Shown here piece after piece: positions 48,384 to 49,421 of a DNA stretch of 64,000 nucleotides. The position numbers and the translations under genes are program-made. This stretch comes from an uncultured Dehalococcoidia bacterium (GTDB lineage: Bacteria; Chloroflexota; Dehalococcoidia; Lucifugimonadales; UBA3495), in assembly GCA_958296385.1 (NCBI GenBank), contig OY282494.1, forward strand, positions 1,835,537-1,899,536, given 5' to 3'. The notes under the pieces are model-generated. The model was not told where the DNA came from and searched no databases. It saw only the letters and a program-made list of their open reading frames with translations. Each line of letters starts with the position of its first letter. Positions within the stretch are counted from its first letter, which is position 1.

Positions 48384-48776
48384 CTAGTCGGACGGATTTT
48401 TGATGGATATGCTGGGGCGCACGGCGCGGGGGGTATGGCCTGGCCAGCAGGGGGCGAGGCCGGCGTGGTATTCCCGGTGGTCGCGCCAGCGTCGGCGGGC
48501 GCCCCGGTTGGGCGGCGTGCGGGAGCCGAATCAGGGGATGCCGGCGCCGATGACTGGCACCGGGCCGATTGAGGTTTGGGTGACGCCGGAGATGAAACGG
48601 CAGTCGGGCCGGGCGGCGCTGGCGTGGCCCCCGAATTCGTCGCGCAAACCGGCGTCGGTTTCGGTGCGGCAGACGATTTCGGGGGCGTGGAACCGGATGC
48701 GCTGCCGGATTGCCGAGCCTTGCGGGGTTCGGGGTTTAGCCCACAGCACATTCCAGTTGACCACTGGCACGGGCAT
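48384..48776 (-). CDS. Small unknown protein; stop TGA at 48531 may be read through (possible second selenoprotein)
   Basis: From ATG 48776 (AAAGGA six bases upstream) the frame codes 81 residues to a TGA at 48533-48531, including WNVLWAKPRTPQGSAIRQRI and GPVPVIGAGIP. The same frame stays open 48 more codons to TAG at 48384, ending RPSISIKNPSD. In that extension 41 of 48 codons end in G or C, against about 33 of 49 in the two other frames, which is the pattern of true coding sequence in this genome. Read through, the gene fits snugly between its neighbours (24 bp to the next start). A 5-bp hairpin follows the TGA but lacks the GGUC loop. Ordinary termination at 48531 remains possible. Confidence 0.5.
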
Positions 48777-48824
48777 AGCACGTCCTTTGGCGCTCGGCAA
48801 CGATTGGCGCTCGGCAACGCTGGT

Positions 48825-49364
48825 TTAGCCGTCGTTGGTGAGCATATTGGCGATGCGGCCGGCGTACTCGTGGGCCAGCTCCTGAACCTGGGGAATGGTG
48901 CGGGGGGCCAGGGGGCTGGGGAGGGCAAGTATCTGGACGGTGGGCATACCCAGAGAGGACGCCCGGGCGTGGGCGGCGCGGGTAAAGCTTTCGGTGATGA
49001 CGCTGACCGAGGGGATGCCGCGGGTTTCGGTTACTACTGTGTCGTGGAGACCCCACGCCGTGCAGCTCCCTCAATCCGCGATGCCGTGCACCACCGCATC
49101 GCACTGGGCCACCAGCTCGTCGATGGTTTCGTCGGAGCAGGGGGCGCTGAAGCTGAACTTTTGCAGGTAGATTACCCGGTCAACGGCGTAGTCATCCTGG
49201 AGGATGGTTTGGAGTTCCTTGAGGAAGTTGTCGGAGTGGTACTTGCGGTTCTCCAGCAGGCCGATGGTCTTGCCGGCCAGAGTGGGCAGACGGCCGGCGG
49301 AGGCGCGTTCCGCGGTTTGCTGCTCCGGCCTGGGGTCGAGGATTTGGATGGTGGCAGTGGTCAT
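48825..49364 (-). CDS. UGSC-family selenoprotein (in-frame TGA = selenocysteine 98)
   Basis: 179 residues counting selenocysteine. The frame reads GKTIGLLENRKYHSDNFL, then CDAVVHGIAD, then TGA (49073-49071), then GSCTAWGLHDTVVTETRGIPSV and ITESFTRAAHARASSLGM, to TAA at 48825. D-U-G-S-C is the defining motif of the UGSC (seleno)protein family, and the U-x-x-C pair looks like a redox site. A hairpin after the TGA has its GGUCU loop at nucleotides 19-23, as in E. coli fdhF. Ordinary gene callers will cut it at residue 97. ATG 49364 is 57 bp after guaB3. The reaction is unknown. Confidence 0.92.
49043..49073 (-). promoter_or_regulatory. Bacterial SECIS element with UGA codon
   Basis: On the minus strand the UGA is followed 13 bases later by CGUGG, loop GGUCU, CCACG. 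The loop begins at nucleotide 19 after UGA, as in the E. coli fdhF SECIS (loop also GGUCU), which SelB recognises. Confidence 0.85.
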
Positions 49365-49421
49365 TGGTTACCTCCGGTTAGTTCTGCGGATTGTCTTTCC
49401 GGCACGGGCCGAAAGGCGGGG

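Follow-up and report, generated by a model that had tools for sequence, protein, structure and literature searches.

A UGSC-family selenoprotein of an uncultured Dehalococcoidia bacterium and its putative partner in a proposed two-subunit selenoenzyme

The 64,000-nucleotide stretch of an uncultured Dehalococcoidia genome analysed here (the window) contains a gene that, as established at the level of sequence, encodes a UGSC-family selenoprotein with an in-frame UGA. The evidence as a whole is best explained if this protein and a protein encoded just downstream form a two-subunit selenoenzyme resembling GrdB, in which UGA98 is read as selenocysteine (Sec) with a bSECIS hairpin; we put the probability of this reading at about 0.6.

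Few selenoprotein families are as abundant in aquatic metagenomes as UGSC, which had 255 copies in a 2008 survey (PMC2398784) and accounted for 8.2% of selenoprotein genes in a 2021 study. Membership of the family is in itself ordinary: the family has been known since 2008 and the literature found gives it no function. A preliminary description of this locus had held that no chemistry was established for the family, which is true of the literature that could be searched. What goes beyond the known family is a near-constant coupling to an uncatalogued partner of about 350 residues, together with kinship to GrdB and PrdB, the Sec subunits of glycine and D-proline reductase. Given the near-constant partner and the kinship with that Sec domain, an 'unknown redox protein', whose gene ordinary annotation cuts at the UGA, becomes a concrete enzyme of two subunits, open to co-expression and assay.

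Table 1. Features of the UGSC locus (window positions) and the SelD gene of the same genome
Feature	Coordinates	Strand	Basis or remark
UGSC family selenoprotein gene, 179 residues, Sec98 in D-U-G-S-C	48825..49364	-	PF24696 E 2.9e-49; NF041046 127 bits; 32-sequence alignment
Sec codon TGA, in frame, at residue 98	49071..49073	-	direct reading; TGA kept in 65/68 UGSC matches of the phylum; aligned with Cys in four outside homologues
Shine-Dalgarno-like GGAGG, six bases before ATG	49371..49375	-	read directly
bSECIS apical hairpin CGUGG-GGUCU-CCACG	49043..49057	-	nucleotides 17-31 from the U of UGA; covariation
Partner protein, 357 aa	47286..48359	-	beside or fused to UGSC; no Pfam/NCBIfam family
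Decayed endonuclease/exonuclease/phosphatase gene between UGSC and partner	48402..48800	-	intact in sister locus, broken here
SelD, selenoprotein with in-frame TGA in CAG-U-AAK	L047, G000:C1:1766127-1767047	-	

Decoding of the in-frame UGA

The UGSC frame begins with ATG at 49364 on the minus strand and ends at a TAA stop (48827-48825); its 179 codons include one internal TGA, around which the sequence translates as AD-U-GSC. The preliminary description had given this frame with figures that are all right (TGA at 49073-49071, residue 98 of 179, 81 further codons to a normal stop), and had correctly anticipated truncation by standard gene prediction, since ordinary calling ends the frame at the UGA and leaves an ORF of 97 aa. 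Its family assignment, drawn from the D-U-G-S-C motif, is confirmed by two profiles: the read-through protein matches the whole PF24696 domain (167.9 bits against a curated cut-off of 25) and exceeds the cut-off of NCBIfam NF041046, 'UGSC family (seleno)protein' (127 bits versus 125). The parts before and after the TGA, searched separately, each match PF24696 (E 3e-20 in both cases), so the read-through frame is not a product of chance, and the homology downstream of the UGA that had been named as a check is present. Residues U98, C101, F127 and G139 are invariant in the alignment of 32 sequences.

The family occurs in 26 of 251 genomes of the phylum, and exactly one TGA is found in 65 of its 68 matches there. 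The host genome (complete, one contig, 3.3 Mb) has six UGSC genes, the window copy and five paralogues, with one TGA each. It also encodes SelA, SelB, SelD and tRNA-Sec (selC, anticodon UCA), the machinery that the preliminary description had suggested looking for elsewhere in the genome; the SelD gene carries an in-frame TGA of its own. General recoding of TGA is ruled out, as this codon is an ordinary stop elsewhere, ending about 10 of 29 long window ORFs picked by codon bias.

The bSECIS element has a 5-bp stem and the loop GGUCU, 18 nt after the UGA, with the hairpin spanning 14-28 nt after it. Loop and distance are presumably the same as in E. coli fdhF. Nucleotides 17-21 pair with 27-31, and all five pairs are present in 25 of 25 distinct UGSC sequences, a first set from which the fusions with the motif U-S-T-C (L035, L037, L039-L042) were excluded. 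Within this set 17 cells are altered on both sides of the stem, a degree of covariation equalled by none of 500 shuffles, and sliding the register destroys the stem. An independent set has all five pairs in 68 of 76 sequences and the G23-U24 loop in 69 of 76. The window hairpin agrees in spacing and loop with the published bSECIS model (PMC13188914). In the excluded fusions, which form a subfamily, the SECIS hairpin lies about one base earlier.

Outside homologues were fetched through the partner protein, so that sampling was blind to Sec or Cys at the motif; they comprise 80 loci from many phyla, the best-scoring 80 of more than 580 candidates, and rates derived from them apply to the better-conserved part of the family. 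In four of these best 80 loci (L086, L091, L102 and L111, from two sphingomonads, Natrialba asiatica and a Binatia bacterium) Cys takes the place of Sec, the motif reading C-G-S-C. These supply the Cys homologues of residue 98 that the preliminary description had asked after, and in all four Cys-type genes loop positions 23-24 read GC, not GU. SelA scores above cut-off in 10 of 11 UGA-bearing genomes tested, versus none of the four Cys genomes; the eleventh UGA-bearing genome is a MAG of 1.9 Mb, perhaps incomplete. The Cys form of UGSC thus co-segregates with absence of SelA. Other variants were observed: L127, L129 and L106 read U-G-S-S, having lost the second Cys of UxxC with the UGA kept, and L134 is a UGSC-like gene with neither Sec nor Cys (GEGGNPT at the motif), still near a partner gene, in a genome where SelA is represented by a fragment at a contig end and nothing scores above cut-off.

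Ordinary gene calling, with its 97-aa ORF, would fit a TGA that really ends translation or that arose by nonsense mutation in a truncated gene or pseudogene, but this is very improbable given retention of the TGA in 65 of 68 matches in the phylum, family constraint on the sequence after it and covariation of the SECIS hairpin. Judged by sequence evidence (full machinery, conserved TGA, covarying bSECIS and Cys homologues), SelB and tRNA-Sec evidently insert Sec at UGA98, aided by the bSECIS hairpin, in line with the proposal of the preliminary description that this UGA codes for Sec.

The partner protein

The product of the downstream gene has no Pfam or NCBIfam family match, 29 of its homologues gave nothing of significance against Pfam, and a sequence search of the PDB returned chance-level matches only. 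The host genome has six partner copies, matching its six UGSC genes: four adjoin a UGSC gene, one is fused to another in a 599-codon frame (L018), and one lies about 5 kb from the sixth UGSC gene (L014/L051). Further natural fusions of the two are L035 and L037-L042. Among the best 80 of more than 580 outside partner loci, UGSC is present at 75, across many phyla, and is on the partner's strand in all 75; it is the upstream gene at 58 of these loci, and the matched regions lie a median of 130 nt apart. Three of the five loci lacking UGSC lie at or near contig ends. It is therefore well supported, by one pair per UGSC copy, a common strand and natural fusions, that UGSC acts together with the 357-aa protein. 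A structure model of the fusion (pTM 0.89) suggests a fixed arrangement of the two domains; structural search with this model gave matches confined to the UGSC domain. Identity of the partner with GrdE/PrdA was considered and rejected, there being no profile similarity to PF09338.

The decayed endonuclease/exonuclease/phosphatase gene between the two window genes has an intact counterpart in a sister locus (L075:3236-3976, PF03372 E 2.7e-13), and at L076 UGSC and partner are too close together to hold such a gene; it is not part of the UGSC-partner system. In the region of the host genome where UGSC and partner are about 5 kb apart (L162, G000:C1:3078500-3098000), a phage portal gene, a HerA-like helicase and a DNA methylase are also found, which suggests a mobile island.

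Fold, kinship with GrdB and PrdB, and possible function

The structure model of UGSC (pLDDT 93.8) consists of five alternating strand-helix units, with UxxC starting the helix after the third strand. Its best structural matches are flavodoxin-like and unspecific (Z 9-11). UGSC is thus predicted to be flavodoxin-like rather than thioredoxin-like as published; review literature, including a 2026 listing, places it among the thioredoxin-fold selenoproteins. If the published assignment were right, UGSC might be a thioredoxin-type Sec thiol/disulfide oxidoreductase or a peroxidase acting on proteins or peroxides, loosely linked to the partner, along the lines suggested in the 2008 marine survey. 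In favour of this, UxxC is a redox motif when it begins a helix, and the family is described as likely thioredoxin-like in that survey (PMC2398784) and as having a thioredoxin fold in the 2026 listing. We consider this unlikely, because a thioredoxin-type core would carry CxxC or UxxC after its first core strand, whereas the confident model predicts an alternating alpha/beta protein with UxxC after the third; moreover, the top structural matches are flavodoxin-like, the profile match is to GrdB/PrdB, and the partner seen at 75 of the best 80 outside loci of more than 580 would be superfluous for a general redox protein.

Relatives of GrdB/PrdB supplied the C-terminal Sec domain used for the profile match. 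Compared with it in either direction, the UGSC profile gives hhalign probabilities of 92.4 and 91.8 (about 92-93%) with UxxC aligned on UxxC, versus 0.9% for the reversed profile and 2.1% for the best of 60 column shuffles; with the motif masked on both sides the match is still 70%, and unrelated profiles score 0.2-0.3. The single window protein does not match PF07355 at E up to 0.1, and UGSC is accordingly classed as related to the GrdB/PrdB family PF07355 without belonging to it. No statement of this link was found in the literature, and no solved GrdB/PrdB structure was found by sequence. GrdE/PrdA (PF09338) is absent from the host genome; as the partner is also unlike GrdE/PrdA, the analogy with GrdB/PrdB rests on one domain. 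A complex of UGSC and partner might be real and its likeness to GrdB a matter of shared fold only, with Sec binding a metal or metalloid or serving another non-reductase role. The commonness of flavodoxin-like folds and the unspecific structural Z of 9-11 would agree with this, but persistence of the profile match under motif masking, far above shuffled controls, makes it rather improbable, slightly more so than the thioredoxin-type alternative. The host genome also encodes a short PrdB-like protein (L059, G000:C1:3061078-3061503, minus strand) with U-P-L-C just past its PF07355 match; such short proteins (UGLC, UPLC, UPVC) are many in the phylum, mostly in genomes lacking GrdE/PrdA.

In the GrdB-like enzyme proposed here, the UGSC chain would be a flavodoxin-like domain, a homologue of the Sec domain found at the C-terminus of GrdB/PrdB, U98 at the helix N-terminus would be a nucleophile of low pKa, and C101 the resolving thiol, with the substrate pocket most likely supplied by the partner. 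The pair may work like protein B of glycine or proline reductase, in that a small organic substrate would be attacked by the selenolate or reduced, and the resulting U-C selenenylsulfide would be re-reduced by cellular thiols. Neighbouring genes in other bacteria include TctC carboxylate receptors (25 of 124 ORFs), CoA-transferases, enoyl-CoA hydratases and TPP enzymes, which point to catabolism of small organic acids, or may just mirror the commonness of these genes in Betaproteobacteria; neighbours of the UGSC genes in the host genome have no common theme and are not consistently catabolic. Stickland reductases are not expected in aerobes, which many UGSC carriers apparently are, and this counts against the GrdB-like reading. 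Tentatively, and at somewhat less than even odds, UGSC and its partner of about 350 residues may be the subunits of a selenoenzyme that is widespread among Chloroflexota, Proteobacteria and others with an apparently aerobic life. It would put a Sec domain of the GrdB/PrdB type to use in a setting other than Stickland fermentation, its substrates being small organic acids taken up by the cell, or similar compounds.

Comparison with known systems

The window protein is like the described UGSC family (PF24696/NF041046) in length, in both halves, in D-U-G-S-C, in having Cys homologues and in its bSECIS. It differs from the family in no notable respect: residue 104 is Trp, as in most members, whereas a minority have a third Cys there (UxxCxxC).

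With GrdB/PrdB (PF07355), UGSC shares the C-terminal domain profile, the position of UxxC and the following E..GIPTV strand region, and a Chloroflexota GrdB (L056) likewise reads U-G-S-C. In contrast to GrdB/PrdB, UGSC has no N-terminal GrdB half, and its partner is unrelated to GrdE/PrdA.

The 2008 GOS survey (PMC2398784) describes UGSC fused to a conserved unnamed domain, 'Unknown_1', which is probably of the same family as the partner. That system resembles the one in the window in linking UGSC with an uncatalogued domain, but is a fusion, whereas the window has two separate genes. Unknown_1 is called limited to a few aquatic organisms in the survey (PMC2398784), whereas here UGSC accompanies the partner at 75 of the best 80 of more than 580 outside loci, in many phyla.
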